Positions 42,705 through 58,700 of a stretch of 64,000 bases of DNA are shown here, one piece after another. The notes beneath the pieces were generated by a model that ran no database searches, was not told where the DNA came from, and saw only the letters and a program-made list of their open reading frames with translations. Source of the DNA: Thermotoga sp. SG1 (lineage in GTDB: Bacteria > Thermotogota > Thermotogae > Thermotogales > Thermotogaceae); NCBI RefSeq assembly GCF_002865985.1, contig NZ_LNDD01000005.1:186001-250000 (forward strand), given 5' to 3'. How positions within the stretch are numbered: position 1 is the stretch's first letter; every line of letters begins with the position of its first letter. The position numbers were made by a program, and so were the translations under genes.

Positions 42705-42755
42705 ATACAGAGACTTATGATAAAACACACAAAAAGCCGTAAGGGTGATTATAAA

Positions 42756-44102
42756 GTGGCTGGAATTTTTTTTAAATTTCCATTCTTTAGAGACACGTTT
42801 TTAGGCACTTCACTGGTTTTTCTCGTTTCGTTCTTCGAAAATAATTCTCTATGGTTCATTCCTTTGGTTCTCATAATTTTGGCATCAAAATTCGGTGTTT
42901 CCATTTCGTTTTCTATAATTGGAATTTTGTCATATTCATTCATTTTTTCAACTATGCTTCTAAGTGGGTTTGCAATGATTTTGGTAAGATCAATATCAGA
43001 CTTTTTGTATCTAAAGGACTCTCGAAAAATTTACGAAAACTATTCAGGAGCGATTGTTTTTGTGATTATGTTATCTTTTATGGTTGGAAATGTACTTTTC
43101 AGAGCATATCAATACAAAACACTTGCTGTTTGGTTGTTTGTTAGTTTTTCCGTTTTGCAAACTGTTTTATTGTTCGTCGGGGCTATTGAAAAAACACATG
43201 CTCTTGTTTTGCCTGTATTATTTATCTTTTCGTCATTGATAATACTCTTTAAAATTTTTGGAAATATCATCAATGAAAAATACTTGCTTGTAATAATTTC
43301 ATTTTCAATGGGTTTCTTGACCTTTATAGCGAATAGCATTATTACAAAACATTTAAGGATCTCAACTCATCTGAAATTTGACTTTCTTCATTATGCACGA
43401 AAGTATCCTGAACTACTGTTAATAGCGTTTTTTTACTATTTTTCCTACTGGATTGATAATATAATTATGTGGTTCAAAAAAGGATTAGAAGTAGCTCCTA
43501 ATATTATCATATCCCCTAACTACGATTTTCCGCTTTTTATAGCTGCTATTTCTTTTACACCAGCTATTGTTCTATTTAGTCTAGGTATTGAGACCACCTT
43601 TCTAAAAAAGTATCTATCTTTTTTCTCAGCTATAAAAAACAATAAAACATTAGAACAGATAGAAGCTCGATTGGAAGAAATTCAAGCCTCTATGAAACAT
43701 ATCCTTCTTGAGACAACGCTTGTAGCTATTACAATAGCTATTTTAGATTTATCAGCAAGCAAATTTTTGAATAAATGGCTCTCCAAGTTTTCAATAACAG
43801 TTTTTAGATTAGGAGCTATTGGGCATCTCTTCAATGTTATTTTTATGCTTATGCTGACAATACATCTGTATTTCAATTTTTATAAAGAAGCTTTTATAGG
43901 AGTCCTTATTTCTTTCTCTGTAAATCTGATCTTGACGGCATTTTGCAGATCAATGGCACCAGGCTTAGGTTTTTTATTGGCATTTTTTAGTGGTTCTGTG
44001 TTTCTTTTAAGAAAAATGAATCTAAAAGATTTGGTATTCAAAATTTACTCTTCTCAACAACATGGTTTGGAAAAAGTTGAAAGAATATCTTGGAGACCCT
44101 GA
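42756..44102 (+). CDS. PelG-like membrane protein, cassette 1
   Basis: The 448-residue polytopic protein (about 12 hydrophobic spans) is of the PelG family, MATE/flippase-like, which with PelD, PelE and PelF forms the inner-membrane complex that makes and exports Pel polysaccharide. It aligns along its length with the second copy: residues 1-20 (AGIFFKFPFFRDT against AGKSFDLIFSKNT), RKYPELLLIAFFYYFSYWIDNI against RKYPQLIFVGYFYYLSIWIDNF, and LGIETTFLKK against IAIETVFRRD. I chose GTG 42756 (after AGGGTGAT) because it matches the start of copy 2; an ATG at 42717 is in frame but has no ribosome site. The gene is AT-rich. Confidence 0.85.
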   Translation: MAGIFFKFPFFRDTFLGTSLVFLVSFFENNSLWFIPLVLIILASKFGVSISFSIIGILSYSFIFSTMLLSGFAMILVRSISDFLYLKDSRKIYENYSGAIVFVIMLSFMVGNVLFRAYQYKTLAVWLFVSFSVLQTVLLFVGAIEKTHALVLPVLFIFSSLIILFKIFGNIINEKYLLVIISFSMGFLTFIANSIITKHLRISTHLKFDFLHYARKYPELLLIAFFYYFSYWIDNIIMWFKKGLEVAPNIIISPNYDFPLFIAAISFTPAIVLFSLGIETTFLKKYLSFFSAIKNNKTLEQIEARLEEIQASMKHILLETTLVAITIAILDLSASKFLNKWLSKFSITVFRLGAIGHLFNVIFMLMLTIHLYFNFYKEAFIGVLISFSVNLILTAFCRSMAPGLGFLLAFFSGSVFLLRKMNLKDLVFKIYSSQQHGLEKVERISWRP

Positions 44103-45267
44103 AAAAAGGAAAGCAAACATATATTCTTTGATCGAAGTATTGATCATTTATTTGCTGGTTTATTTCATCACTTTGTTTGTTAAACATCAATATATTGAGC
44201 AACTATATATTGTACCATTAATAATTTTAATCACAAGATACCAATTTTTTGCCCAAATTTTGAATGTCTTTATGTATTCTCTATTTGTATTTTTTATTTC
44301 AAAAAGGATTTATCATTTTGAAGAAATGTTTCTACAATTTTGCATAATATTTTCAGCACTTGTTTCTTCTTTGTCGTACTGGAGTCACGTTGTTAAAATG
44401 TATTTTTTAGAAGAAAGCTTGAAAAGATCAAAAGTAAATCTAGAATCATTTAGAAAATATATTGAATACCTTGAAGATGTTGTAGATAAATTAAAAACAA
44501 AATTAATCTATGAAAACGAAGGAATAAGTGCTTTGATGTTAGAGTTATCGAAAATTCCTGCAGAAAATTTAAAAGAATTTGCGTATAATTTTTTGGAAAA
44601 AGTATCTGCTTTTTTGGAGATAAAAAAGTCAAGTTTCTATTTATACAGAAACGGTTTCTTAAGAATAATTGCCAGTATTGGTAATCCTTCATTCGGATTT
44701 TCTATCTCAGAGGATCAATCGCTGGTAGTAAAGAAAGCACTGGAAGAGGGTAGCTGTTCGATATTAGAAGTTTTTAACCAGTTTTCTCAATTAGAAAAGG
44801 AGCCTATACTGGCTGTCAGGATCGGGGATGAAAAAGAAATCTTAGGAGTTGTCATTGTGGAGGAACTTGAAGACCCTGTTCAATTGAGTAACATAGAGAA
44901 AAATCTGAAGGCACTTTCAGTTTGGTTCATTGCAAAATTGGAGAGAATCGAAAAGGATGCAGAAAAACACAGACTACCAGATGGAACATATACTGTTGAT
45001 TTTTATAATAAAATTAAGCGGCGTTTGATGGATTTCTTCGCAAAATATAGTCTTCCATTTTCAGAAATCTGTATTTCAATCTATGACCATGAATTAGATA
45101 AAGTTTTGAAAGCCATCAGATCAGAAGATTTAGCAACAAAGATTAAGATCTATAACAACAGAATTTTCTTAAAAATACTTCTACCTTTTTGTGACGAGGT
45201 GGGGCAAATTTCAGTATTGGAGAGATTGAAGCATGTTTCAAGAACGATTGAATTTTCGAATTGTTAA
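44062..45267 (+). CDS. PelD-like cyclic-di-GMP receptor, cassette 1
   Basis: The 401-residue protein has the PelD layout: about four N-terminal spans (residues 20-120), a coiled linker, a GAF domain (about 150-290; ISALMLELSKIPAENL, SFYLYRNGFLRIIASIG) and a degenerate GGDEF-like domain (about 300-390; LPDGTYTVDFYNKI). It lacks a GGDEF active site but keeps RSED (353-356), an RxxD I-site, followed by LATKIKI and LKILLPFCDEVG as in PelD. Cyclic-di-GMP binding there activates Pel synthesis in Pseudomonas. It overlaps pelG1 by 41 bases and pelE1 by 35. The start is uncertain, as the ribosome site is weak. Confidence 0.85.
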   Translation: MVWKKLKEYLGDPEKRKANIYSLIEVLIIYLLVYFITLFVKHQYIEQLYIVPLIILITRYQFFAQILNVFMYSLFVFFISKRIYHFEEMFLQFCIIFSALVSSLSYWSHVVKMYFLEESLKRSKVNLESFRKYIEYLEDVVDKLKTKLIYENEGISALMLELSKIPAENLKEFAYNFLEKVSAFLEIKKSSFYLYRNGFLRIIASIGNPSFGFSISEDQSLVVKKALEEGSCSILEVFNQFSQLEKEPILAVRIGDEKEILGVVIVEELEDPVQLSNIEKNLKALSVWFIAKLERIEKDAEKHRLPDGTYTVDFYNKIKRRLMDFFAKYSLPFSEICISIYDHELDKVLKAIRSEDLATKIKIYNNRIFLKILLPFCDEVGQISVLERLKHVSRTIEFSNC

Positions 45268-46102
45268 TTTAATCAATTTCTTCATAGCTTTTATCAATTT
45301 TTTAATGTGGTTAAACAAAAAAAACGACGTATTCGATTTGGTTCTCATTATAAATATTGTGATACATTTTGCTTTAAATAAAGACCTTTCTCAAGCTTTA
45401 ATTGCGCTTGTTACATATCCTTTTGGCTTGGTTATTTTTACAAAGGAAAAGGAAATTGATTTTCAAATTTATGATCAAGAGATGGAGGAAGACTTCCCAG
45501 TTTTAGAAGAAAAAAGATTGGAAATACTACCTTTAAAAGGAACTTCTTTGTTTGGAACTCCGAATGAAAAGAAAAAACTAATTCTTCAAATTGCAGAAGA
45601 TGTCAAGAGCGGAAAAGTATCATCAAATAAGGTCCTCCCTATTCTCCGTAAAATGGTGCTTGACTCACATCCGGATGTTGGATTGTATGCATCAGAAGCG
45701 ATTGAGAAAATAGAAGAACACTTTGGGACAATTGAGGAATCACTAGACAAATTAGTAGAAAATCTAAACGAAAAGAATATAAAAGTTGTTTTAGATTACA
45801 TAAAATCAGGATTCTTAGACGGGGATATAGGAAGCTTTTATAAGAACATTCTTAAGAAAGCATTGACTGAGAAATTGAAAAAAACAACAGTTTTACATCC
45901 AGAATTTTTCTCTCTTCTCTATGAAATTGAAGGTGATATTTCTATACTTTTAGAGGGATTTTTAAAAACAAAATCCCAAGAACTATATAAACAGCTGTTG
46001 AAAGAGATATTGAGGAAAAGGAACTACGAAGTTCTCAAGTTTTTAATGCTAGACGGTTCTTTAACAAATGGAGATAAAGATTCTTATAATTTTGTATCAT
46101 AA
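45233..46102 (+). CDS. PelE-like membrane protein, cassette 1
   Basis: The 289-residue protein has two N-terminal spans (IVNLINFFIAFINFLMWL and the following hydrophobic block to about 75), then a cytoplasmic helical repeat region with the PelE-like phrase LRKMVLDSHPDVGLYASEAIEKIEE. PelE interacts with PelD in the synthase complex. It aligns with copy 2 at 53097 (VVNLINFSIGLLNVGLWV; KDSDSDVVLYATESVEKV). The last 68 bases overlap the end of the convergent pelF1. Confidence 0.8.
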   Translation: MFQERLNFRIVNLINFFIAFINFLMWLNKKNDVFDLVLIINIVIHFALNKDLSQALIALVTYPFGLVIFTKEKEIDFQIYDQEMEEDFPVLEEKRLEILPLKGTSLFGTPNEKKKLILQIAEDVKSGKVSSNKVLPILRKMVLDSHPDVGLYASEAIEKIEEHFGTIEESLDKLVENLNEKNIKVVLDYIKSGFLDGDIGSFYKNILKKALTEKLKKTTVLHPEFFSLLYEIEGDISILLEGFLKTKSQELYKQLLKEILRKRNYEVLKFLMLDGSLTNGDKDSYNFVS

Positions 46103-47450
46103 GATCGAGTCTGTATTTCTTGCGAACATTTTTTTTGGCATTTTCAGAAAATACTTCTCTCATTTCTTTGTCTTCAAACAATTTTAATATAGCCTTTGCC
46201 ATTATCATGTGATTCTTAGGTGGGACGATAATTCCACACTGTCCCTCTTCATCATAGACTATTTCTTTACACGCCCCTACGTCAGTTGCTACAATAGGAA
46301 CTCCTGCTGCCATAGCTTCCAATATAACAAGAGGTTGCCCTTCCGATACACTACTTAGAAGAAGCACGTCAAGTTTAGGGTAGTATTCTCTTACATTTTG
46401 TGGCCCCAAGAATTCTACTGTATCTTCTAGAAAAAGATTCTTCGCTAATTTCTTACATTCTTCATAATAATCCTGTTCTTCATCAGTTGGACCAATTATT
46501 AGGAATTTTATCTTTTCATCTTTCAAGACATCCTTTACTATACGTATGGATCTTATAGCCGTTTTCACATCTTTTATTCTGGTAACTCTTCCTACGAAGC
46601 CTACTATGAATCCTTCATGTTTTTCTTTGGGTATATCAAATTTGTCTACATCAACTCCATTGGGTATTATTGTCATTTTTTCTGGATTAGCCCCAAGCTC
46701 CAGCTGGAAAAGTTGATTTTTTTTGAAAAGAGTCGTCAGTGAATCACACACATTATATGCCAACATGCTGATTGCTCTGAACAAATTAATCCACATAGGC
46801 TTGTAGTCTTCAGGAAGCCATTTGGAAATAATTATTTCTCTTTCCCTTTCTCTGTGGTAAATTCCATGCTCCGTTATTATCAGTGGAGTGTTGTAAAGAA
46901 ACTTCCCCACAATTCCAACAAGGGAAGCATAACCTGTACTTGGAACATGGAATATATCGCATTTTTCTGGAATAAACTGCAAAGAGTTTATAATGGGAAG
47001 AGTTAGATTTCTAACAATCCAATAATATTCAGTAAAACCTCTGTGATTAAAGAAATTTTTATATGTTTTGGTTACAATCTCCCAAAATTCTTTACTGGAG
47101 TATAATCTGTAAAAAGATTTTCCAGCGTTTTTCCTTATGAAATCTTCAAGTATAAGAACCAATTCTTTTAGACTTTGTCTTTTCAAAATTGCATCAGTTA
47201 GGGAACTAAGCATAGAAAAATCCGCTTCCTCAGGTATATTAGGATCATAGTCGCCAAAAATATTCAACTCATGTATACGAATCACATTCTTAGGAATTTT
47301 GTACCTGATCTCTCTTTTTTTCGAATCTGGGCGTAGGTGGTAAATTTCAAATTCAAATTCTGGAAGATTAGAAATGAGAGTTTGTATCCAACTTGAAACA
47401 CCACCTGTAACGTAAGGGTAAGTACCTTCAGCAATTAGACCTATTCTCAT
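46035..47450 (-). CDS. PelF-like glycosyltransferase (GT4), cassette 1
   Basis: The 471-residue cytosolic GT4 enzyme is the Pel polymerase type. It starts with GLIAEGTYPYVTGGVSSW, characteristic of PelF, then HVPSTGYASLVG, TEHGIYHREREREI, the UDP-binding VGFVGRVTRIKDVKTA and the E-x7-E motif in SEGQPLVILEAMAAG. PelF uses UDP-GalNAc in Pseudomonas; the sugar here is not known. ATG 47450 follows GGGAGTTGCC. It is read from the GH114 gene's operon on the minus strand, opposite to pelGDE1. Confidence 0.93.
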   Translation of the reverse strand: MRIGLIAEGTYPYVTGGVSSWIQTLISNLPEFEFEIYHLRPDSKKREIRYKIPKNVIRIHELNIFGDYDPNIPEEADFSMLSSLTDAILKRQSLKELVLILEDFIRKNAGKSFYRLYSSKEFWEIVTKTYKNFFNHRGFTEYYWIVRNLTLPIINSLQFIPEKCDIFHVPSTGYASLVGIVGKFLYNTPLIITEHGIYHREREREIIISKWLPEDYKPMWINLFRAISMLAYNVCDSLTTLFKKNQLFQLELGANPEKMTIIPNGVDVDKFDIPKEKHEGFIVGFVGRVTRIKDVKTAIRSIRIVKDVLKDEKIKFLIIGPTDEEQDYYEECKKLAKNLFLEDTVEFLGPQNVREYYPKLDVLLLSSVSEGQPLVILEAMAAGVPIVATDVGACKEIVYDEEGQCGIIVPPKNHMIMAKAILKLFEDKEMREVFSENAKKNVRKKYRLDLMIQNYKNLYLHLLKNRLALKT

Positions 47451-47472
47451 GGCAACTCCCACCGCCCCGGTA

Positions 47473-48402
47473 TCACTTTACAGGTTGTATGCCTTCTATC
47501 ACATTTATCTCATCAAGTAGCAGGTCAGATCGAGCCGCATAGGGAATGTAGCCTTTTTCCTGGCATTTTTTGTAATAATCCAGAATGCGCTCTAGATTTT
47601 CTAAGGAATCGCTACCATCGTCCACGTAGTCGACAGAGAGAATGAATTTTCCATGCCATCTCAGTGTATCTAAGTAGCGTATTCTATTCTCAGTTTCGTT
47701 GTCTGGGAGAGGGTTGGTTTTGAAATAAAAGAGATTTTCAACACTCCAGCCGGAAACGACAGAAAGCAATCTTCCATCGTCGAACTCGAGAATGTTTTCA
47801 CCATTCTGCGGGATTATCAGAATATCAGGATTTTCTTTTCTGATGTATTCCGCAATGTTTTCTATGAAATCTATCATGCAAATGGCTGCTTCTCTTCTTG
47901 GAATCTGTCCCTTTGATGACCAGTATTCAAAAGAGTCGATTCTGTCAAGATATACACCTTTGAACCCTTGGGAAAGTATCCTGTCGATATAAGAAAAGAT
48001 AATTTTCTTCCATTCTGGATCCCAGTACTTCACAAAATAATTTCCTTCCCACATAGGATCTTCTTCTCCAAGCCATTCGGGAGGGTTTTCATACCAATTG
48101 TTTTTCCAGTAAAAACGGTAGTCCTCTGCCTGACCTATATTTAGATAAGCAACGGGAGTGACTCCTGCGTCCAGCATGATCTTTATCTCCTCTGGAGAAT
48201 ACTCACCTTCTTCGTTCCCGTCTCTGGAGTAATCTATGACAGCGAGCTCAAAACCCGAGGAGGCGATTTCAAAAGGATCGGCGTTTTGAAGTTGATAAAG
48301 CCAGTTTTTGAAAGGAGTTTCCCATTCATTTTGAAAAGTCAAACTACATGAAGTTATAATAAATGCTATTATTATTATAGAAACGAGTGATTTTCTCTTC
48401 AT
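47473..48402 (-). CDS. GH114 endo-alpha-1,4-polygalactosaminidase-like lipoprotein (PelA N-terminal function)
   Basis: The protein of about 309 residues has a lipoprotein signal (basic KRKS, hydrophobic stretch, IITSC with the lipidated cysteine). The mature part is a TIM barrel of the GH114 family: LAVIDYSRDG, MLDAGVTPVAYLNIGQAEDYR, and KGVYLDRIDSFEYW with the likely catalytic acids. It matches T. maritima TM1410, whose structure is known. GH114 is the N-terminal hydrolase domain of PelA, which trims Pel. I chose ATG 48402 over GTG 48411 because AGAGGTGG sits upstream of it. It is cotranscribed with pelF1 (22-base gap). Confidence 0.88.
   Translation of the reverse strand: MKRKSLVSIIIIAFIITSCSLTFQNEWETPFKNWLYQLQNADPFEIASSGFELAVIDYSRDGNEEGEYSPEEIKIMLDAGVTPVAYLNIGQAEDYRFYWKNNWYENPPEWLGEEDPMWEGNYFVKYWDPEWKKIIFSYIDRILSQGFKGVYLDRIDSFEYWSSKGQIPRREAAICMIDFIENIAEYIRKENPDILIIPQNGENILEFDDGRLLSVVSGWSVENLFYFKTNPLPDNETENRIRYLDTLRWHGKFILSVDYVDDGSDSLENLERILDYYKKCQEKGYIPYAARSDLLLDEINVIEGIQPVK
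48331..48360 (+). promoter_or_regulatory. Promoter of the deacetylase-pelGDE2 operon, inside the GH114 gene
   Basis: TTGAAA (48331-48336), an 18-base spacer and TATAAT (48355-48360) lie within the antisense of the GH114 signal-peptide codons. This predicts a start near 48367 and a leader of about 60 bases antisense to the GH114 5' end. Confidence 0.6.
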
Positions 48403-48427
48403 AAAAACCACCTCTGGAGGAATCCAT

Positions 48428-50581
48428 ATGAAAAAAATGCTTCTATTGATGTTATTTTTACTCTCCTGTCTAGCCTTTTCTAAGACTCTCCTTCTTTACA
48501 AAGGTTCCGAAGATGGATATGGTGCCTCTGTGTTTTCATCCTATATTATCCCCGCTCTGAAATATTTGTACGAGGATTACGATTTGGTTGATGTGGAAGA
48601 AAAATTTCCTGATCTTTCAGGGTACGATCTTGTAGTTACTTGTTATTATTCCTCTAAAATGAAAAATGCAAGGATCTATTTGAAAAAACTGACAGAATAC
48701 GTGTTGAGTGGAGGAAAAATATTCGTAATAAACAATCTTGGAGCCTTCGAAGATCCTTCAGGAAACGGTCCAGGTCTTGTTGATATAAACGCTTTGTTGA
48801 ATCTCATCGGTGTTCGTTATGAATATAACTGGCGTCAGGAAGATGTCTTGAATCTGGAAGTTGATCAAGAATATCTTCTGAAAGAAGTAGAACTTCCAGC
48901 GAAGAAATCTTTCGATGGTTTTTCTATTTTCTCACCAACTGTAAGAGTTTTGATGTACGCCATAACGAACACCGGTAAGTATCCAGTTATTTTCTATGGA
49001 GAGCATGGGGGAATGGCAGTTTTTGAACACGCTTTTGATGAAAAAGGAAACGCTGTAATGGATTTGGGAAAGATAGTGAATGACCTTCTTCTCTACAACC
49101 GAACAAATCGGGTTTTTCTTTCGAAAGAGAACTCTCACGTAAGAAGGATGTTCGAGAACGCTCTCTTTGAAGTAGATACAACGCTCAAATATCCTCTTTC
49201 CTACTATAAGGCTGTTGTGATAACAGACGATGCTCTTCTAGAAAGGGAAGATATAAAAAATTATCTTGAAAACGGAGGAAGCGTGATTTTTCTTGGAAAA
49301 GGGACACATTCGATAACAGGAAATCTTGTTCTTGAAAAAAAACACCTTTATATTCCAGAAAGCATCGAAGCAGGATATCAGTATTTAAGTTATAGAGTTG
49401 CTCCTGAAGGAGCGAAAGTTTTCATTACGGTAGACGGGACGCCTGTTTCCTGGATGGTGAGGAAGGGAAAAGGAACCCTTGTGTATTTTCCGCCTGATCT
49501 TCTTGGAAAATGGTCCAGAGGAGTCCTTTTTAACGAGTTTCTCGTCTCATCTAATCTGATAATCTCTCCCATTGTGAACACCTTTTCTGTATTCTTCGAC
49601 GATTTTCCCCTACCTTCTTATGGGATCAGGAACGATATAACAGGTACAACGGATGAAGTTTTTTATTACAGAATCTGGTGGGAAGATATGAAAAAACTGT
49701 GCGAGGAGAATTCTATAAGACCATTTACTGCTTTGATAACGAGTTATAACAACAAGCCTGAGTACAGTGGGTTCCTTGAGTTCCTGCGAAGTAGTACCTC
49801 TCTCAACTTATTAAAAACACTCCTAGAAGCGAAAGATGTGGACGTAGGTCTGCATGGATACAATCATCTTCCCCCTCTACAGAAGAACTGGAATCCTGAT
49901 GAACTGCGAATCTCTTACAAAGCTTTAAAAGATTTTCTAAGTGAACTTTCAAAATCGTATTTTCCTTTTTTTCTTGTGGCGCCCAACAATGAGATCGATA
50001 AGGAAAGCATAAAGATTTTAAAAGAAATCTTTCCTTCAATAAAGATTGTGGGAACAGTTTATTCTTTGGAAAACGATACAAGTGAGTATGAAATCTTCGG
50101 GGATGTACTGATTTTGCCAAGAACTACAAGTGGACACTATCCTATTCAAAGGCTTCTTGTTGAAACTATATCCACTCTTTTGAATATGGGAACCTACCAT
50201 TATTTTACTCATCCTGATGATGTCTTGAGTCCTGATAGAAACCCAGAAAAGAGAAGTTGGGAGTACATGCTCGAACAACTGAGAGAATTCTTTCGTATAA
50301 TGAAAGAGACCTATCCCTGGTTGAGGAATATGACATCTGAAGAGCTGTACAGCACCTTCAAAGATTATTTTGAAAACAAGCCAACTATCGTTTATCATAA
50401 AGATAAAATAACGGTGATATTGGGTTCGAACGCAAAACTTCCACGCTATTTCTTCTTTAAAAGTGATCGGGATTTTTCCATTCAGGGTGGAAAAGTGATT
50501 TATGAGAGAAGTGGACTTTGCGTAATAGAGATGAATGAAAAAAAGATGGAGGTATTGCTGAATGGCAGGAAAGAGTTTTGA
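48428..50581 (+). CDS. PelA-like exported polysaccharide deacetylase (DUF2194/CE-type)
   Basis: The 717-residue protein has a signal peptide (residues 1-18), then an amidotransferase-like fold (KTLLLYKGSEDGYGASVF), a middle region, and from about 390 on a NodB-like deacetylase: VFFDDFPLP (metal aspartates), DVGLHGYNHLPP (H-x3-H) and HYFTHPDDVLSPD. This is the C-terminal part of PelA, which partly deacetylates Pel in the periplasm. With the divergent GH114 gene it makes up a split PelA. ATG 48428 is 25 bases from the GH114 start; GGAGG lies 7 bases before it. It overlaps pelG2 by 20 bases. Confidence 0.85.
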   Translation: MKKMLLLMLFLLSCLAFSKTLLLYKGSEDGYGASVFSSYIIPALKYLYEDYDLVDVEEKFPDLSGYDLVVTCYYSSKMKNARIYLKKLTEYVLSGGKIFVINNLGAFEDPSGNGPGLVDINALLNLIGVRYEYNWRQEDVLNLEVDQEYLLKEVELPAKKSFDGFSIFSPTVRVLMYAITNTGKYPVIFYGEHGGMAVFEHAFDEKGNAVMDLGKIVNDLLLYNRTNRVFLSKENSHVRRMFENALFEVDTTLKYPLSYYKAVVITDDALLEREDIKNYLENGGSVIFLGKGTHSITGNLVLEKKHLYIPESIEAGYQYLSYRVAPEGAKVFITVDGTPVSWMVRKGKGTLVYFPPDLLGKWSRGVLFNEFLVSSNLIISPIVNTFSVFFDDFPLPSYGIRNDITGTTDEVFYYRIWWEDMKKLCEENSIRPFTALITSYNNKPEYSGFLEFLRSSTSLNLLKTLLEAKDVDVGLHGYNHLPPLQKNWNPDELRISYKALKDFLSELSKSYFPFFLVAPNNEIDKESIKILKEIFPSIKIVGTVYSLENDTSEYEIFGDVLILPRTTSGHYPIQRLLVETISTLLNMGTYHYFTHPDDVLSPDRNPEKRSWEYMLEQLREFFRIMKETYPWLRNMTSEELYSTFKDYFENKPTIVYHKDKITVILGSNAKLPRYFFFKSDRDFSIQGGKVIYERSGLCVIEMNEKKMEVLLNGRKEF

Positions 50582-51938
50582 TCTGATCTTTTCCAAAAAT
50601 ACACTTTTTGCGGACGCTTTGGCGTTCTTTTACTCTATCTTCATATACTTTGCACCATGGCTTGTTGTCTTATTTTATATAGTTTGGGTTTCTAGATGGT
50701 TTTCTCCTTCTCCGTTTTTCCTCGGTGTTTTGACTTACTCTCTCATATTCTCCATGATAGTATCAGGTGGGATGTCTTTTCTGATATCTCGCTTCCTGGC
50801 AGACAGCATTTACAGAAAGGATTTCAGAAGAATCTACGAAAGTTACATCGGAGCGGTTCTTTTTGTTTTTGCGGTGTCTTTTGTTATTGGATGGATATTT
50901 TTTGTTGTAAACGATCAGTATTCTACTGTGCAAAAGGTTCTTTCTTGCTATGCACTGATCGGTTTTTCTCTTGTGTGGATACAGATGCAGTTTGCATCCG
51001 TTACTGAGAGAAGTTCTCTGATTGCTCTGTCCTTTATCCTTGGATTTTCAATTTCAATTTTTCTTGCCAGATACTGGAAGACAGATTTTCCAGAGAAACT
51101 TCTTCTTGTACTGGATGTAGGGATTGGTTTGATAATATTTGCGCTCAACTACCTGGTATTGAGTTACTTGAGAAATTCCACAAGAGTGGGATTTGGTTTT
51201 CTAACTCTGACGAGGAAGTATCCACAGTTGATCTTCGTTGGTTACTTTTACTATCTGTCAATCTGGATCGACAATTTCACCATCTGGAAAATGAAGGGTC
51301 AGGAAATATCACCGGGATTCTTTCTGTTCGCAGAGTACGATATACCAAAGTTTGTTGCCGCTCTGTTTTTTATACCGAGTCTTGCAGTGTTCAACATCGC
51401 AATAGAAACGGTGTTCAGAAGAGACTATAAAAACCTCATGATATCCATCGTGAACAACCATCCCTTGAAAACCATAAGAGAGAATATGATGAAGCTTTCT
51501 ATTTCTCTGAAACAAGCCTTTTTGAATATGCTTTCTCTGAACCTTGCAGCACTTGTTTCTTGTTTCTTTCTGGCACATTCCATCAAGAAGTGGTTCAATC
51601 TTTCAGAGAATTTCGTTGATATCTTCTATTGGCACAGTGTGGGTGTGAGTATGAATATATCTTTTCTCTCACTTCTTGTTGTGGTCCTTCATTTCGAGTA
51701 TTACGGAGTTGCACTCGAGGGAGCCTCTCTGGTATTAATGTTGAATGCTTTGCTTTCTGCTTTGACAATTGAAAGATTTCCTGGGTTCAGTTTTTTCATC
51801 TCCTTTTCAGCAGGAGTTGTTTATCTTTTCCTTCGTTTTAAATCGAAGGATTTTCTTCACGAAGAGTATGTAAAGCAGCCATTGGGACTGGAGAAAAGCA
51901 AAATAGAAGTTAGGAGATTGGGGGAACGGAAAAGATGA
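50562..51938 (+). CDS. PelG-like membrane protein, cassette 2
   Basis: The 458-residue polytopic PelG-family protein has about 12 spans, with the same landmarks as copy 1 (RKYPQLIFVGYFYYLS, IAIETVFRRDYKN, and a C-terminal QPLGLEK). It probably exports or helps assemble the polymer with PelD2, PelE2 and PelF2. ATG 50562 follows GGAGGTATTGCTGA inside the deacetylase end. Base composition is closer to the genome norm than copy 1. Confidence 0.87.
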   Translation: MAGKSFDLIFSKNTLFADALAFFYSIFIYFAPWLVVLFYIVWVSRWFSPSPFFLGVLTYSLIFSMIVSGGMSFLISRFLADSIYRKDFRRIYESYIGAVLFVFAVSFVIGWIFFVVNDQYSTVQKVLSCYALIGFSLVWIQMQFASVTERSSLIALSFILGFSISIFLARYWKTDFPEKLLLVLDVGIGLIIFALNYLVLSYLRNSTRVGFGFLTLTRKYPQLIFVGYFYYLSIWIDNFTIWKMKGQEISPGFFLFAEYDIPKFVAALFFIPSLAVFNIAIETVFRRDYKNLMISIVNNHPLKTIRENMMKLSISLKQAFLNMLSLNLAALVSCFFLAHSIKKWFNLSENFVDIFYWHSVGVSMNISFLSLLVVVLHFEYYGVALEGASLVLMLNALLSALTIERFPGFSFFISFSAGVVYLFLRFKSKDFLHEEYVKQPLGLEKSKIEVRRLGERKR

Positions 51939-53131
51939 GGAAAAGAAGAAAGTTTTGGTTTCTGGAAGTTCTTGTTGCATACTCCATAATTTTTCTCTTT
52001 GACTACATGTACGAAACGAACGTATTCGAAAAGAGTTTCTTCAATTTTTACTGGATTCCTCTTCTTTTCTTCAGTGTAAGATACGATCTTGTTGTACACA
52101 TATTCAGTGTACTGGCTTACGCTTTTTCCATAATCCTATCATTAATGCTGAAAGATCAGGGGTTCGTCTTCCCAGAAAGGTTTGCACTGGCAAATTCCAT
52201 AATTGTTGGTGTATCCACCGTTCTTGGATTGATAAACGAGAGAAGAGTAAGAGAAATAGAACGTCTTTCTCTTGATCTCAAAAACAGAGAAAACGATGTG
52301 ATTGAGTTGAACAAATCCATTCAAAATCTACGAAAGATGTTGAATTCACTAGAACTCAAGGTGTTTTATGAAGAAGCAGGGATCAGTTCGCTTCTTGTGA
52401 AACTGAGAGAGCTTCCAACAGATGATTTCGCGGAGTTCTCTCAAAAATTTGTTGAGACAGTTTCAGAGTTTTTTAATTTGAAAAAAGTTTTCATCTATGA
52501 ATACAAAGAAGGCTTTCTGAGGTTTGTAGCAGGTACAGGAAAGCCGGATCTTGGATTTTCGCTTAAAAAAGGAGAATCCATTGTCATAGAAAATGCTTTG
52601 GAGAACGGGTCGTGCAGGATAATTGATGTGATAGAGAGTGTTTCTTCTCGGAATGAACCATGGATTGCTGTTAGAATAGGAACCACTGAAGAAATGCTTG
52701 GTGTGATAACGGTAGAAGAAACAGAAACACTTGAACTTGAAGCGGTTGAAGAGTACTTAGTATCTCTGGCAAACTGGATATATCTGGTGATGAGAAAATT
52801 GGATTTTCACAAATACGATAAGTACAGATTGAATGATGGAACCTTTCCACCAGAGTTTTATGAGAACGAAAAAAGAAAATTCAAAAACCTTGAAGTACAG
52901 TATGGCATTCCGTTTACAGAGATCTGTTTGATACTGAGCAAAAGAAGCCTCAGCAAAATCCTGAGTCTCCTCAGAAAGAGCGACTTGGTTGTGAAAATAT
53001 CTGAAAAAGAAGACGATGTATCTTTAAGGATATTGCTTCCTCTCTGTGATGAAATCGGACTTGGCATTGTCAAAAAGCGTCTGGAAGGTGAGGTAGATGA
53101 GATCGAATTTGTCAGTTGTGAATCTCATTAA
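51935..53131 (+). CDS. PelD-like cyclic-di-GMP receptor, cassette 2
   Basis: The 398-residue protein has about four spans (residues 8-110), a coiled linker (EIERLSLDLKNRENDVIELN), a GAF domain (ISSLLVKLRELPTDDFAEF, FIYEYKEGFLRFVAGTG) and a degenerate GGDEF-like domain (LNDGTFPPEFYENEK). The RxxD site is RKSD (347-350), followed by LVVKI and LRILLPLCDEIG, matching copy 1. It overlaps pelG2 by ATGA and pelE2 by 35 bases. Confidence 0.87.
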   Translation: MRKRRKFWFLEVLVAYSIIFLFDYMYETNVFEKSFFNFYWIPLLFFSVRYDLVVHIFSVLAYAFSIILSLMLKDQGFVFPERFALANSIIVGVSTVLGLINERRVREIERLSLDLKNRENDVIELNKSIQNLRKMLNSLELKVFYEEAGISSLLVKLRELPTDDFAEFSQKFVETVSEFFNLKKVFIYEYKEGFLRFVAGTGKPDLGFSLKKGESIVIENALENGSCRIIDVIESVSSRNEPWIAVRIGTTEEMLGVITVEETETLELEAVEEYLVSLANWIYLVMRKLDFHKYDKYRLNDGTFPPEFYENEKRKFKNLEVQYGIPFTEICLILSKRSLSKILSLLRKSDLVVKISEKEDDVSLRILLPLCDEIGLGIVKKRLEGEVDEIEFVSCESH

Positions 53132-53894
53132 CTTCTCTATAGGACTTCTGAACGTTGGCTTGTGGGTCAACGGAAAAAACGATTTTCTGCTCGTCATTTT
53201 CTTTTTGAACCTGGTCGTGAACTTTCTGGTGAACAGAGATCCATCACAGGTGCTGATAGCTGCTATGACTTATCCCCTGGGTCTTTTGCTTCCCATTAAG
53301 AAGAAGAGACCACCGTTTGAAGTCATGGAGGAACCAACAACAGTTGAAACAACCAGAAAAATTGCAAGCAAATCTCTGAAAGAGAGTTTATTCTTTGGAG
53401 ACGAGACCACCAAGCGTGAAACGGTTCTGAGAGTATCAGAAGACGTGGAGAAGGACGAGGCCTCTCTGGAAATCTTCATGAAAGCTTCCAGAAAGTTGAT
53501 GAAGGATTCCGATTCAGATGTTGTACTTTACGCAACAGAAAGTGTGGAAAAGGTGGATCGTTCTTTTGAAGATGTGGAAAAGTTTTTCTCAGGAGAGACT
53601 ATTGAAGAAAGCAAAAGGTTCTATGAAAAAGTGCGGGATTATCTCGAAGCAGACTTTTTGACTGGAAAAGTTGAAAGATACTACAAAGAATCGATCCTGA
53701 CTCGAAACGGAAGTATGGAAAAAGACGAGAAGTATTTCGTAATGAAATACAAGGTTGACAATGATTTATCTGTTTTGTGGGAAGGTCTAGAAAAAACGAA
53801 GTCTCCTTTAATATACAGAATGCTTATGATAGAACTTTTGAAACAAAAAGATTTTGAAGGAATCAAGAAATTGAAGGAACTCTTTTCTCAATGA
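53097..53894 (+). CDS. PelE-like membrane protein, cassette 2
   Basis: The 265-residue protein has two N-terminal spans (VNLINFSIGLLNVGLWV, LLVIFFLNLVVNFLV) and a helical repeat region (SRKLMKDSDSDVVLYATESVEKV). It is 24 residues shorter than copy 1. ATG 53097 follows GGTGAGGTAG. It overlaps pelD2 by 35 bases, the same as in cassette 1, and the convergent pelF2 by 32 bases. Confidence 0.8.
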   Translation: MRSNLSVVNLINFSIGLLNVGLWVNGKNDFLLVIFFLNLVVNFLVNRDPSQVLIAAMTYPLGLLLPIKKKRPPFEVMEEPTTVETTRKIASKSLKESLFFGDETTKRETVLRVSEDVEKDEASLEIFMKASRKLMKDSDSDVVLYATESVEKVDRSFEDVEKFFSGETIEESKRFYEKVRDYLEADFLTGKVERYYKESILTRNGSMEKDEKYFVMKYKVDNDLSVLWEGLEKTKSPLIYRMLMIELLKQKDFEGIKKLKELFSQ

Positions 53895-55275
53895 GTGAAA
53901 GATAGATCTTTCTGTAACTCTCAATCATGCGATCGAGCCTGTATTTTTGAACTACCCTACGACTGTTCCTTGAGAATGTCCTTCGTAGATCATCATCCTC
54001 ACAAATCTTCACTATGGCCTTTGCCATGGAAAAATGATCTTTCGGTGGAACGATGATACCACATTGTCCATCTTTATCGTAAACCATTTCTCTGCATGAT
54101 CCCACGCCTGTAGCAACAATTGGAAGCCCAGCTGCCATAGCCTCGAGAATCACAAGAGGTTGCCCCTCTGATACACTGCTCAGAAGGAGTAGATCCATTT
54201 TTGGATAGTACTCTTTCACGTTCTGCGGCCCCAGAAACTCTACGGTGTCTTCCAACCACAAAACGTTGACCAGCCTTTTTATTTCTACAAAGTAATCTTC
54301 TTCATCCACGGGTCCTATGACAAGAAACTTCAGTTTCTTTTTTGGACCGATCATCTCTTTGGCCAGGCTGATAGCTCTGATCGCAGTCTTCAGATCCTTA
54401 ATTCTGGAGATGCGCCCAACAAATCCAACTATGAAACCCTCGTGTGGTTCTTTTGGGAATGAATAGGAGTCAACATCTATGGCATTCGGTATTACCATCA
54501 TTTTTTCTGGATCTGCTCCAAGTTTTAACTGGTAGGCCTGATTTTTTCTGGAAAGTGTTGTCAGAAAATCTGACAGTTCATAAGCGATCATACTTATAAT
54601 CCTGAAGAATTGTACCCACATTGGTTTGTAGCTGTCAGGAACCCATGAGGAAAGAAGGATTTCCCTTTCTCTTTCCTTGTGATATATGCCGTGTTCTGTT
54701 ATTAAAAGAGGAGAATCGTGCATCACTTTTCCGTTGATTCCAACAAGAGAAGCATAACCTGTACTCGGAACATGGTAAAGATCACACTTTTCTGGAACGA
54801 ATTGAAGGGCATTAATGACGGGAAGAAAAAGGTTCATTATCATCCAGTAATACTCGGTGAAGCCTCTTTCGAAAAAGAAGTTTTCGTAGATTTTCACCAT
54901 GATGTTCCAGAATCTTTTTGTTTTCAACATCTTTCTGATGCTTTTTCCTGCGTTTTTTTCGATGAATTCTATAGCGAATGGTATTATCGATTCAATCGTT
55001 CTTCCTGAAACGATTGCAGATATTATCTTTTCTAGAGGCTCAAAATCAACTTTTCTGGAGGATTTTGGTTGGAAATCCCCGAAAATGTTCAACTCGTGGA
55101 TTTCCAGCACATTGGACGGTACTTCGTATTTAACATTCCGATCTTTGTTGTCGGGCTTCAGGTAGTATATTTCAAAATCGAATTCTGGAAGATGGGTTAT
55201 TAGAGTGTGAACCCAGCTTGAAACCCCACCAGTTACATAAGGATACGTCCCTTCAAGAATAAGACCTATTTTCAT
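53863..55275 (-). CDS. PelF-like glycosyltransferase (GT4), cassette 2
   Basis: The 470-residue PelF-type GT4 is visibly identical to copy 1 over most conserved stretches: EGTYPYVTGGVSSW, EKCDLYHVPSTGYASLVG, TEHGIYHKEREREI, VGFVGRISRIKDLKTAIRA, and SEGQPLVILEAMAAGLP with the E-x7-E pair. ATG 55275 follows GGGGGATAAATCT. It is alone on the minus strand, tail-to-tail with pelGDE2 and divergent from the HD-GYP gene. Confidence 0.93.
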   Translation of the reverse strand: MKIGLILEGTYPYVTGGVSSWVHTLITHLPEFDFEIYYLKPDNKDRNVKYEVPSNVLEIHELNIFGDFQPKSSRKVDFEPLEKIISAIVSGRTIESIIPFAIEFIEKNAGKSIRKMLKTKRFWNIMVKIYENFFFERGFTEYYWMIMNLFLPVINALQFVPEKCDLYHVPSTGYASLVGINGKVMHDSPLLITEHGIYHKEREREILLSSWVPDSYKPMWVQFFRIISMIAYELSDFLTTLSRKNQAYQLKLGADPEKMMVIPNAIDVDSYSFPKEPHEGFIVGFVGRISRIKDLKTAIRAISLAKEMIGPKKKLKFLVIGPVDEEDYFVEIKRLVNVLWLEDTVEFLGPQNVKEYYPKMDLLLLSSVSEGQPLVILEAMAAGLPIVATGVGSCREMVYDKDGQCGIIVPPKDHFSMAKAIVKICEDDDLRRTFSRNSRRVVQKYRLDRMIESYRKIYLSLIEKRVPSIS

Positions 55276-55322: not shown

Positions 55323-57026
55323 ATGTCGCAGAAAAGATTGAGTGAGATCGTAAGAGACCTTATCTACAAAAGGAACATTTCGCTTGTGTTTATTATATCA
55401 ATTGCCGTGGCAATACTTGTATTTGCAATCACCTACCACATCGACAAAAAATCCTGGCTTGAAAAGATCGATATGATATCAAGTGAATGGCAGCGAACAA
55501 TAGACAACTACATGGATGTTCTCAATTTCTTTGCGGATCACCCTGAAGATTTCAAAAACCCCGGAGATATTCTGGAAGTTTTGAAATTGATTCGTGAACA
55601 TTTTGGTGATTATATAGCTTACCCTATCTTTGCAATTCCAGACGGGAAGTATTACATATATCCTCTCTACAATTTTCCCTCCGACTACGATCCGAGGGAA
55701 AGAATCTGGTATAAATCCGCTGTTGAAAATCCTGATGCTTCCATTATCTCACCGCCCTTTACTCACAGGATACTTGGAGTGGTCACGTTCGGTATTTCGA
55801 GGGCCATCTTTGACAGAGATGGAAACCTTCTGGGAGTTCTTGCGATCGATTTCGTTCCTGAAAAGGTTATGAAAGATCTTTTACTTCCTGGCATGTATGT
55901 GATGTCAAAAGATGGCACAATGCTTCTTCAAAACGGTAACATCCATGTTCGAGTTGATCCCAAAGTGAAATCTTCAGTTGCTGGGGTAAAGATAGAAAAC
56001 TTCTGGGTTGCCTTCTTCAAACAAACAGTCGATGACACGATTTTTGTGGTACAAATACCTCTTTTTACTTTACTAAGGAATTCCCTGCTTCACTTTGGAT
56101 ATGTAGTAGGTCTTGCTTTCCTTTTTGTTACACCTATCCTGAGAAGAACGATGAAGTTTTTCGACAGAGAGTTGAGAGAGCCTCTCGAGGAATTTTCGAA
56201 AGCAGCGAAAGAGTACCTCCGTTTGAGAACCTTCGACACCTCTGGTATATCTTCAAGTATTTTTGAAATTGATCAACTCGTAGACAATGTAGCAGATATG
56301 ATCACGATTATAGAATCCCAGAGAGAAGAGCTCGAAGCGTCTTATGAGGAACTCGAAGCCTCCTACTCAGAACTTCAAAGAATGACACATGAAATAAGAG
56401 AAAAAAGCAAAGCGCTCGCTGAAGCGTACGAGTTTTTCGCCTACAAACTCGCAGATATCGTTGAAGGCTTTGATGAACCCACAGGAAGTCATGTTAAACG
56501 AGTCCAGGAACTATCCAAATTCTTTGCAGAGAAGATGGAACTTCCCAAAGATCTTGTTCACCAGATATACCTTTACTCACCTCTTCACGATATAGGAAAA
56601 ATAAAAGTTCCAAAAGAGATACTGAACAAAAAAGGAACGCTCACACCTGAAGAGTGGGAAATCATGAAGAAACACACCATTTGGGGAGGAGAGCTCCTTT
56701 CTGGTAGAAAAGAACTGGAAATTGCAAGAAACATCGCTTTGTATCACCACGAAAATTACAATGGAACAGGATATCCTTTTGGATTGAAAGGCGATGAAAT
56801 ACCAATAGAGGCCCAAATTGTAAAACTTGTTGATGTTTATGATGCTCTTCGCTCGGAAAGACCCTACAAAAAGGCGCTATCCCACGAAGAAGCAGTCAAG
56901 GTGATACTCGAAGGAGATCAAAAAACCAATCCATCTCACTTCCATCCCAAGCTGTTTGAGATATTCAAAGAACACCATGAGACTGTAAGAGAAATCTGGG
57001 ATAGGATTTCTGAAACTCAGAAGTGA
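55323..57026 (+). CDS. Membrane HD-GYP phosphodiesterase with dCache sensor
   Basis: The 567-residue protein has a span (residues 18-36), an extracytoplasmic dCache-type domain (ADHPEDFKNPGDILEVL through GNLLGVLAIDF), a second span (GYVVGLAFLFV), a HAMP-like linker with coiled coil (EELEASYEELEASYSEL), and an HD-GYP domain with HDIGKIKVP, HHENYNGTGYPFGLKGDEIP and DVYDALRSERPYK, all intact. HD-GYP proteins degrade cyclic-di-GMP. It starts 47 bases from the divergent pelF2, so it probably lowers the ligand that PelD reads. Confidence 0.93.
   Translation: MSQKRLSEIVRDLIYKRNISLVFIISIAVAILVFAITYHIDKKSWLEKIDMISSEWQRTIDNYMDVLNFFADHPEDFKNPGDILEVLKLIREHFGDYIAYPIFAIPDGKYYIYPLYNFPSDYDPRERIWYKSAVENPDASIISPPFTHRILGVVTFGISRAIFDRDGNLLGVLAIDFVPEKVMKDLLLPGMYVMSKDGTMLLQNGNIHVRVDPKVKSSVAGVKIENFWVAFFKQTVDDTIFVVQIPLFTLLRNSLLHFGYVVGLAFLFVTPILRRTMKFFDRELREPLEEFSKAAKEYLRLRTFDTSGISSSIFEIDQLVDNVADMITIIESQREELEASYEELEASYSELQRMTHEIREKSKALAEAYEFFAYKLADIVEGFDEPTGSHVKRVQELSKFFAEKMELPKDLVHQIYLYSPLHDIGKIKVPKEILNKKGTLTPEEWEIMKKHTIWGGELLSGRKELEIARNIALYHHENYNGTGYPFGLKGDEIPIEAQIVKLVDVYDALRSERPYKKALSHEEAVKVILEGDQKTNPSHFHPKLFEIFKEHHETVREIWDRISETQK
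55392..55400 (-). promoter_or_regulatory. Possible pelF2 promoter inside the HD-GYP gene
   Basis: On the minus strand TGATATAAT (TATAAT at 55392-55397) is an extended -10 match about 117 bases upstream of the pelF2 start. It lies in codons for the first span of the HD-GYP protein, which are AT-rich, so chance is possible. Confidence 0.35.
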
Positions 57027-57527: not shown

Positions 57528-58700
57528 CTACTTTTGAGGTTTCAAATCGATGAACTCCGAAAGGTGTTCTTCGAGTATTTTCACTATTTTCTGATCTAGT
57601 GGCATTTTCTTAATGAGTGAGAGAGCGTCTTCTGGCTTCATGGCAGGTCTGTAGGGTCTGTCACTGGTGAGGGCGTCGAACACGTCGGCTACCGCAAGGA
57701 TTCTTGCAAGAAGAGGTATCTCGCTATTTTTTAGCCCGAGTGGATAACCAGAACCATCTGTTCTTTCATGATGGTAGAGAATGACAGGTACAACGTGGGA
57801 CAGCTCAGAATACTCCTTCAATATATCCGCTCCAACAACCGGATGTTTCTTGATTATTTCGAATTCCTCATCACTGAGTTTTCCCGATTTGTTCAATACA
57901 TGTTCTGAGACAGCGATCTTTCCTATATCGTGCAAATACCCTGCCATTTCAAGAGTTTTCAGTTCTTTTCTTTTAAGGCCCATCTTTTTTCCTATGAGAA
58001 ATGCTATTTTTGCCACATTCCTGGAATGTATAGCCGTGTAATGATCTTTCTTTCCAACGATGGAGACCAGTCTTTCAAGCCCTTCTGTTTCGTAGTGAAG
58101 TCTCAGTACAGATCTTACAAAAATGGAGTGCAGAATAACGATCAAAATAACTCCTCCGATCGAACTCCAGAAAGAAATCGGAAACCAGTTACTCCTGATG
58201 CTTGTGTACTCCAAACCCCAAAACGTCTTTTTTCCGCCTTTTTGAAACTTCACGGAAGCACCTATCGAATTCAGAACACCCTCCATATCCCATTCCACGT
58301 ACGCGGTTTTGTCCGGTATCATCTTTTCTCCCATGCTATCGTATATCTTGAACAGCGCCCAGAGTCTTTCTCCATCGGATTCTATCCTGTAGTACTCTTC
58401 CTCGAAGTCAGGAACTTCGTCAAGGATCTTGATTTCCTTTATGTACGGATCGAGAGATTTGATCTCCTCGAACGCTTCCTCGATGAATTCTTTATCGTTT
58501 TCTTCTATTGCTTCTTTCAACTCCGTCCATTGAAAGTATCCGCTCGACACAAGATCAACAGACCTTTGAACGATCGTCTGGAAGATCTTGAGCTGGTAGC
58601 GTTCTATCTTTTTTTGATAATGAATCTGAACCAAGGCAACACCGATGAATATGAGTATTGCAGAGACCACAAACATCCATCTGTAGCGCGCAAGGTACAA
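57528..58700 (-). CDS. Second HD-GYP phosphodiesterase, membrane-bound
   Basis: The 390-residue protein has a first span (residues 10-26), an extracytoplasmic region of about 145 residues unlike known Cache forms, a second span (GGVILIVILHSIFV), and an HD-GYP domain with HSRNVAKI, HDIGKIAVS, HHERTDGSGYPLGLKNSEIP and DVFDALTSDRPY, all intact. The start is TTG 58700 behind GGAGGGATAGTAC. It is the third gene of a minus-strand unit with DUF218 and DUF996 proteins. Confidence 0.92.
   Translation of the reverse strand: MYLARYRWMFVVSAILIFIGVALVQIHYQKKIERYQLKIFQTIVQRSVDLVSSGYFQWTELKEAIEENDKEFIEEAFEEIKSLDPYIKEIKILDEVPDFEEEYYRIESDGERLWALFKIYDSMGEKMIPDKTAYVEWDMEGVLNSIGASVKFQKGGKKTFWGLEYTSIRSNWFPISFWSSIGGVILIVILHSIFVRSVLRLHYETEGLERLVSIVGKKDHYTAIHSRNVAKIAFLIGKKMGLKRKELKTLEMAGYLHDIGKIAVSEHVLNKSGKLSDEEFEIIKKHPVVGADILKEYSELSHVVPVILYHHERTDGSGYPLGLKNSEIPLLARILAVADVFDALTSDRPYRPAMKPEDALSLIKKMPLDQKIVKILEEHLSEFIDLKPQK

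Follow-up and report, generated by a model that had tools for sequence, protein, structure and literature searches.

What might a thermophilic Thermotoga do with two sets of genes for the synthesis and export of a Pel-like biofilm polysaccharide, placed on either side of a single pair of genes for its modification? The question is raised by a 64-kb stretch of the genome of Thermotoga sp. SG1 (the window in what follows, with SG1 labelled G000; the other G-numbers stand for the Thermotogota genomes compared with it and L-numbers for loci), in which ten genes between positions 42756 and 55275 form two cassettes of pelG, pelD, pelE and pelF with a hydrolase gene and a deacetylase gene between them. 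We think it very probable that this is a locus for a Pel polysaccharide of the alpha-1,4-N-acetylgalactosamine (GalNAc)/galactosamine (GalN) type, controlled by cyclic di-GMP (c-di-GMP) and of the Bacillus cereus kind, with a synthase module that was duplicated in the ancestor of the genus and a modifying pair that stayed single. The machinery is of a known type; what is new is the duplication, restricted to one genus, and its differential loss among relatives.

Two cassettes around a single modifying pair

All ten genes are open reading frames (ORFs), on the strands given in a preliminary description of this DNA, and they bear out its account of a pelG-pelD-pelE series on the plus strand met by a convergent pelF on the minus strand in both cassettes. 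Cassette 1 consists of pelG1 (42756..44102, +), pelD1 (44062..45267, +), pelE1 (45233..46102, +) and pelF1 (46035..47462, -). The ORF of pelG1 opens at 42717; its start is probably the GTG at 42756, which stands behind GGTGAT and aligns with the start of PelG2. Convergent to the three genes before it, pelF1 is on the same strand as the hydrolase gene (47473..48411, -) and is separated from it by 10 bp. The start codon of the hydrolase gene and that of the deacetylase gene, pelADA (48428..50581, +), lie on either side of a divergent gap of 16 bp (48412..48427). Cassette 2 follows with pelG2 (50562..51938, +), pelD2 (51935..53131, +), pelE2 (53097..53894, +) and pelF2 (53863..55275, -). The 3' ends of pelE1 and pelF1 overlap by 68 bp (46035-46102), those of pelE2 and pelF2 by 32 bp (53863-53894).

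Comparison of gene order in relatives, which the preliminary description had proposed, revealed the same double arrangement in G092 and G094. Because two other species show it, the double cassette is neither a product of chance nor an assembly error, and the paralogues, 32-62% identical, likewise rule out an artefact.

Identity of the proteins

The predicted exporters PelG1 and PelG2 match the PelG family of Pfam, PF16933 (194.6 and 324.1 bits for a cut-off of 29; E 3.8e-57 and 2e-96), and the putative Pel synthases PelF1 and PelF2, glycosyltransferases of family GT4 that both carry the motif SEGQPLVILE, match the PelF equivalog of NCBIfam, NF038011 (345 and 313 bits for a cut-off of 100). A check against profiles had been proposed at the outset, and it succeeded for these two proteins; PelD1, PelD2, PelE1 and PelE2 matched no Pfam or NCBIfam profile above cut-off. 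PelD remained below the Pfam cut-off with GAF_3 (E 0.009 and 2e-5), and neither phmmer nor a profile of 19 rows found a PelD in the PDB. Comparison of folds alone did so. The AlphaFold2 model of PelD2 (predicted local distance difference test, pLDDT, 82.6) has a GAF and a GGDEF-like domain in addition to membrane helices and a long stalk. PelD of Pseudomonas aeruginosa (4eu0, 4etz, 4euv) accounts for its top seven matches, and for eight of the first nine, in the PDB (E 3e-7, probability 1.00). The whole-chain superposition score was low, which we read as domains oriented differently to each other in the model. PelD1 would similarly be a membrane-anchored protein with a GAF and a degenerate GGDEF domain (iterated hidden Markov model, E 2.9e-142). 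When the two proteins are aligned with 17 other PelDs of Thermotogota, 12 columns are invariant, among them R347 and D350 (PelD2 numbering), at the spacing of the RxxD c-di-GMP I-site, which is thus conserved in 19 of 19 rows. Predicted fold and invariant RxxD together confirm the assignment as PelD, a putative c-di-GMP receptor. PelE, by contrast with these, is recognized as a family conserved at its position in the locus, whose members have membrane helices at the N-terminus as well as helical repeats (a weak HEAT_2 match in PelE1). Pfam, a profile against the PDB and Foldseek returned helical-repeat noise only, and the model of PelE2, all-helical and of low confidence, had no significant match in the PDB.

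The modifying pair had been described as one split PelA, made of a GH114 hydrolase and a deacetylase. The split stands, since the two functions are encoded by separate, divergent genes, unlike the fused PelA; the family of the hydrolase has to be changed. This lipoprotein (lipobox ITSC, motifs YLDRID and PQNGEN), endo-galactosaminidase-like and a counterpart of the hydrolase part of PelA, is the orthologue of TM1410 of Thermotoga maritima, to which it is ~71% identical (TIGR01370, 436 bits; structures 9eux/2aam, E about 1e-145). The Pfam model for GH114 also matches it, though its family placement is GH191 (CAZy 2025), where the TM1410 family is now classed (PMC12054363). GH191 includes a Pel-cleaving member, endo-galactosaminidase activity on Pel being reported for Env-GH191 only (PMC12054363). 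The deacetylase belongs to DUF2194 (PF09960, 512 bits) and matches structure 9zau (E 5.5e-27), named in the study of B. cereus PelADA, founding member of family CE26 (PMC13254593). Its segments DDFP, HGYNH, PR(T/I)TSG and HPDD align with those named for the catalytic residues of the B. cereus enzyme, so that the catalytic set (DD, HxxxH, Arg, HPDD) is intact in this predicted Pel de-N-acetylase.

Duplication and reciprocal loss within the genus

We screened 103 Thermotogota genomes for PelF and PelG. The former is present in 41 of them and the latter in 40, and two intact copies of both are found in G000, G092 and G094 only, all of one genus; the remaining carriers have a single PelF and a single PelG, other double PelG rows being split or partial matches. 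In the trees of PelF, PelG and PelD, cassettes 1 and 2 form sister groups inside the genus, and the single cassette of G095 goes with cassette 1. The concatenated tree places G095 in the same way, with a support of 100/99, and gathers both cassettes in a clade of the genus (100/100). As judged from these trees, the duplication predates the deepest branch sampled in the genus. A duplication later than the split of G095 was rejected on the concatenated tree (approximately unbiased, AU, test, p 0.00018). In G095, pelADA lies ~43 bp from an HD-GYP gene and the single cassette a few kb away: with pelADA adjoining the HD-GYP gene, this is the layout expected if cassette 2 had been removed, so that synteny agrees with the trees.

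The opposite loss is seen in the T. maritima-like G091, where cassette 2 is complete and cassette 1 is reduced to residues 5-93 of PelF1, between the GH191 gene and bfrA. The GH191 protein of G091 agrees with the sequence of TM1410 over the portion compared, so that TM1410, the direct orthologue of the hydrolase discussed here, stands there beside cassette 2 and a fragment of PelF1 only. A protein with a solved structure (9eux, 2aam) and no assigned function thereby gains a genomic context, its likely substrate being the Pel made by the neighbouring genes. From G093 and G096, pel genes are missing altogether. Relatives within the genus have therefore lost one cassette, the other, or both, and we are left with a natural experiment, in which a single genus displays both, either or none of the cassettes around one modifying pair. 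In G096 (L090, G096:C133), a bfrA pseudogene directly adjoins the HD-GYP gene, the entire pel region being gone.

Are both cassettes still in use where they coexist? The preliminary description had allowed for one of them being decayed. For each of the ten genes, the ratio of nonsynonymous to synonymous substitution rates (dN/dS) between G000 and G092 lies within 0.06-0.20; purifying selection has therefore kept both cassettes functional in these two genomes. The description had also proposed a duplicated Pel system with one hydrolase/deacetylase pair for two synthase complexes, and this idea is supported by the present analysis.

What the two complexes would make

We observe at this locus the genes of the pathway, PelE being the exception as to identity, together with conserved catalytic and ligand-binding residues. 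The sequence of events is drawn by homology from B. cereus and P. aeruginosa, where the roles of c-di-GMP and PelD, of PelF and UDP-GalNAc, of PelG in export, of PelADA and of the hydrolase are described (PMC7112168, PMC13254593). GGDEF enzymes (the genome has eight GGDEF matches and one PilZ protein, and two HD-GYP genes neighbour the locus) would make c-di-GMP, which would bind to the I-site of PelD1 or PelD2; PelD and PelE would then activate PelF1 or PelF2, which would polymerize UDP-GalNAc; PelG1 or PelG2 would move the chain over the inner membrane; the single PelADA would deacetylate it and GH191 trim it. The identity of the polymer and the way in which its synthesis is activated and controlled are, here, what we infer.

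The most likely reading is that one Pel-like polymer is the product of both complexes, which would differ in activation, control or export, since the PelF proteins are similar, the modifying enzymes are common to both and the loss is reciprocal. Within G000, PelF1 and PelF2 are 62% identical and keep their catalytic motif, while the PelG, PelD and PelE pairs are just 32-35% identical (PelG 32%), and this contrast favours a common product. The preliminary description had suggested that the two complexes may make different polymers. PelF1 and PelF2 would then use distinct sugars or linkages, with PelADA and GH191 relaxed enough to modify both products. We find this quite unlikely. The cassettes are indeed old paralogues, both under selection, and an alignment of PelF over 468 positions has 32 at which the cassettes differ consistently; two candidate sites of functional difference are K200 of PelF2, a position occupied by R in all the other PelFs sampled, and N417 of PelF1, where the others have D throughout. 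Yet the substitutions are mostly conservative, none of them falls within SEGQPLVILE, a single PelADA and a single GH191 serve both cassettes, and there are species that persist on a single cassette, of one type or the other, a sign of overlap. That the locus builds another GT4-type polysaccharide with machinery that is Pel-like only has a similarly low probability. The inactivity of T. maritima GH191 on oligomers of fungal galactosaminogalactan (GAG) speaks for it (PMC12054363), as does the absence of an epimerase gene from the locus (the genome has a galE-like epimerase, scoring below the cut-off of that family); PelF, PelG, PelD, PelADA and a GH191 hydrolase nevertheless all occur together, and PelADA carries the residues of an alpha-1,4-GalNAc deacetylase.

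As for the origin of the second set, lateral transfer of one cassette out of a close relative missing from the sample, rather than duplication in the genus, is somewhat unlikely, even if the paralogues have strongly diverged (PelG 32%). A survey published in 2020 suggested transfer for duplicated exopolysaccharide (EPS) operons separated by at least 10 kb (PMC7112194); the Thermotoga cassettes differ from these in being adjacent and in sharing PelADA and GH191. They have the same orientation and gene order in tandem, and both fall inside one genus clade in four of four gene trees, with 100/100 in the concatenation. A sister lineage of the genus as the donor is conceivable. Very unlikely, to our mind, is a cassette 1 that would be a redundant copy in decay, now functionless: it was deleted in G091 save for the PelF1 fragment, and its pelG and pelD change faster than those of cassette 2 (dN/dS 0.17 and 0.19 as against 0.08 and 0.12, G000 versus G092), but three species have all four of its genes in intact form, dN/dS being <0.2, conservation of PelF1 equals or exceeds that of PelF2 (0.09 for pelF2), the I-site and glycosyltransferase motifs are intact, and G095 depends on a copy of cassette-1 type alone.

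Spacing and gene order suggest a further twist to the picture of a duplicated module, with GH191-pelF1 and pelADA-pelG2D2E2 transcribed outward from one and the same 16-bp divergent region. If so, PelF1 may be made together with the export parts of cassette 2, a hypothesis that spacing alone puts forward. A cross-wired Pel factory with two channels, where GH191 and PelF1 would be co-expressed with PelADA and PelG2, PelD2 and PelE2, while PelF2 and PelG1, PelD1 and PelE1 would be controlled separately, is unlikely as a whole; partners would then be exchanged between cassettes, and the mixing of synthases and exporters, each with c-di-GMP inputs of its own, would yield polymers that differ in length, in modification or in what triggers them.

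Several points weigh against a duplicated Pel locus as we read it. The tree of PelE alone places G095 outside both cassettes (87/82), and PelE itself is assigned from position and topology, with neither profile nor fold as independent support. Co-transcription of GH191 with pelF1 and of pelADA with pelG2, pelD2 and pelE2 is a matter of spacing only. The GH191 enzyme of T. maritima showed neither binding nor cleavage of fungal GAG oligomers (PMC12054363), and the polymer may therefore not be classical Pel; for Thermotoga sp. SG1 itself, Pel is the predicted product. No PelB or PelC was seen at the locus (PelC was not searched genome-wide) of an organism that has an outer toga, and a profile for the PelB barrel had no match in the genome, a silence that it shared with 14 of 14 control genomes. 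How Pel would leave a toga-bearing cell when PelB and PelC are not apparent is a question that the present finding brings to the fore.

Relation to known Pel systems

In B. cereus ATCC 10987, pelDEADAFG is accompanied by the divergent gene BCE_5582, so that deacetylase and hydrolase are separate and divergent, as they are here (PMC7112168, PMC13254593); this separation was already reported in that organism (PMC7112168). The c-di-GMP I-site is a further likeness, and the catalytic residues of PelADA align. Thermotoga differs by its two G-D-E-F cassettes, a convergent pelF, the order ADA-G-D-E/F, a hydrolase of GH191 and a cell with two membranes (the toga). The single co-directional operon of B. 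cereus is not matched, but it is not needed for function, and we file the locus as a variant of that type. With pelABCDEFG of P. aeruginosa it shares PelF, PelG, the fold and I-site of PelD, a PelE-like protein and the deacetylase and hydrolase functions; it differs by a PelA split in two, by PelB and PelC, of which none was seen, and by order, orientation and copy number.

Pel in Thermotogae was already reported (PMC7112194). In the literature outside subscription journals we found these Thermotoga genes described as Pel only in that survey mention, besides TM1410. Within the same incomplete coverage we found no report of cassettes duplicated in tandem, in one genus only, on either side of a lone PelADA/GH191 pair, of reciprocal cassette loss in Thermotoga, or, for Thermotogaceae, of a pelF that converges on pelE and overlaps its tail. 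The preliminary description had taken one copy per gene as the rule for pel operons, which does not hold: Nitrosospira multiformis and Leptospirillum ferrooxidans have more than one pel set per genome (PMC7112194). The locus is distinct, as had been claimed, by its duplication; it is not so by its inverted pelF, common to single-cassette members of the family, nor by its divergent hydrolase, which is as in B. cereus (PMC7112168). Whether control and export by PelD, PelE and PelG diverge while the polymer stays constant can now be tested.

Gene order across the Thermotogota

Outside the genus, the single-cassette Thermotogaceae G089 and G099 have orthologous PelADA-G-D-E genes followed by a convergent, overlapping pelF, and differ in having one cassette. 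Being common to them, the inversion of pelF is older than the duplication. The tails of pelE and pelF overlap by 22-74 bp in 10 of 10 pairs from Thermotogaceae (window; L038, L039, L040, L041, L045, L046), and transcripts would therefore be antisense to each other there. In G089, a gene for an outer membrane efflux protein (OEP, PF02321, L046:18465-19475) stands just past pelF, a possible lead to an exit channel; no such gene was recognized beside pelF at the other loci looked at.

Other families of the Thermotogota differ, with pelF upstream, co-directional (G077, G059, G043, G079) or divergent (G012, G013), and often a small extra membrane gene alongside. The proteins of this kind encoded between pelE and pelF (~147-192 residues, one membrane helix) are mutually related (L054:8400-8909, L056:10477-10920, L055:9735-10307, L053:10496-11074), and the members tested had no Pfam match. 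Small genes beside pelF in L047, L048 and L057 have no detectable similarity to them. In G068 (L050) and G070 (L052), pelF is far from pelG, with pelADA alongside pelF in both, and in G002 (L044) it is on a different contig; synthase and exporter genes can therefore be unlinked. The PelG match of G068 is restricted to the first half of the protein. A scan of genome contigs with PelF2 yielded one distant Omnitrophus locus only.

Neighbouring features in the window

A promoter-like TTGAAA-18-TATAAT at 48331-48360 (+) is a match to the consensus alone, and the promoter and terminator scans came close to background (45 versus 38.6; 15 versus 10.5); none of this was used as evidence. Divergent from pelF2, the gene at 55323..57026 (+) encodes an HD-GYP-type protein with a dCache sensor (PF13487, E 1.1e-34; dCache_1, E 5.3e-11), a possible c-di-GMP phosphodiesterase judging by its domains. 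Its adjacency to pel, like that of the second gene of this type named below, is absent in G091 and G094 and kept in G092 and G095. Further on, a second HD-GYP-type protein is encoded at 57528..58700 (-; PF13487, E 6e-40).

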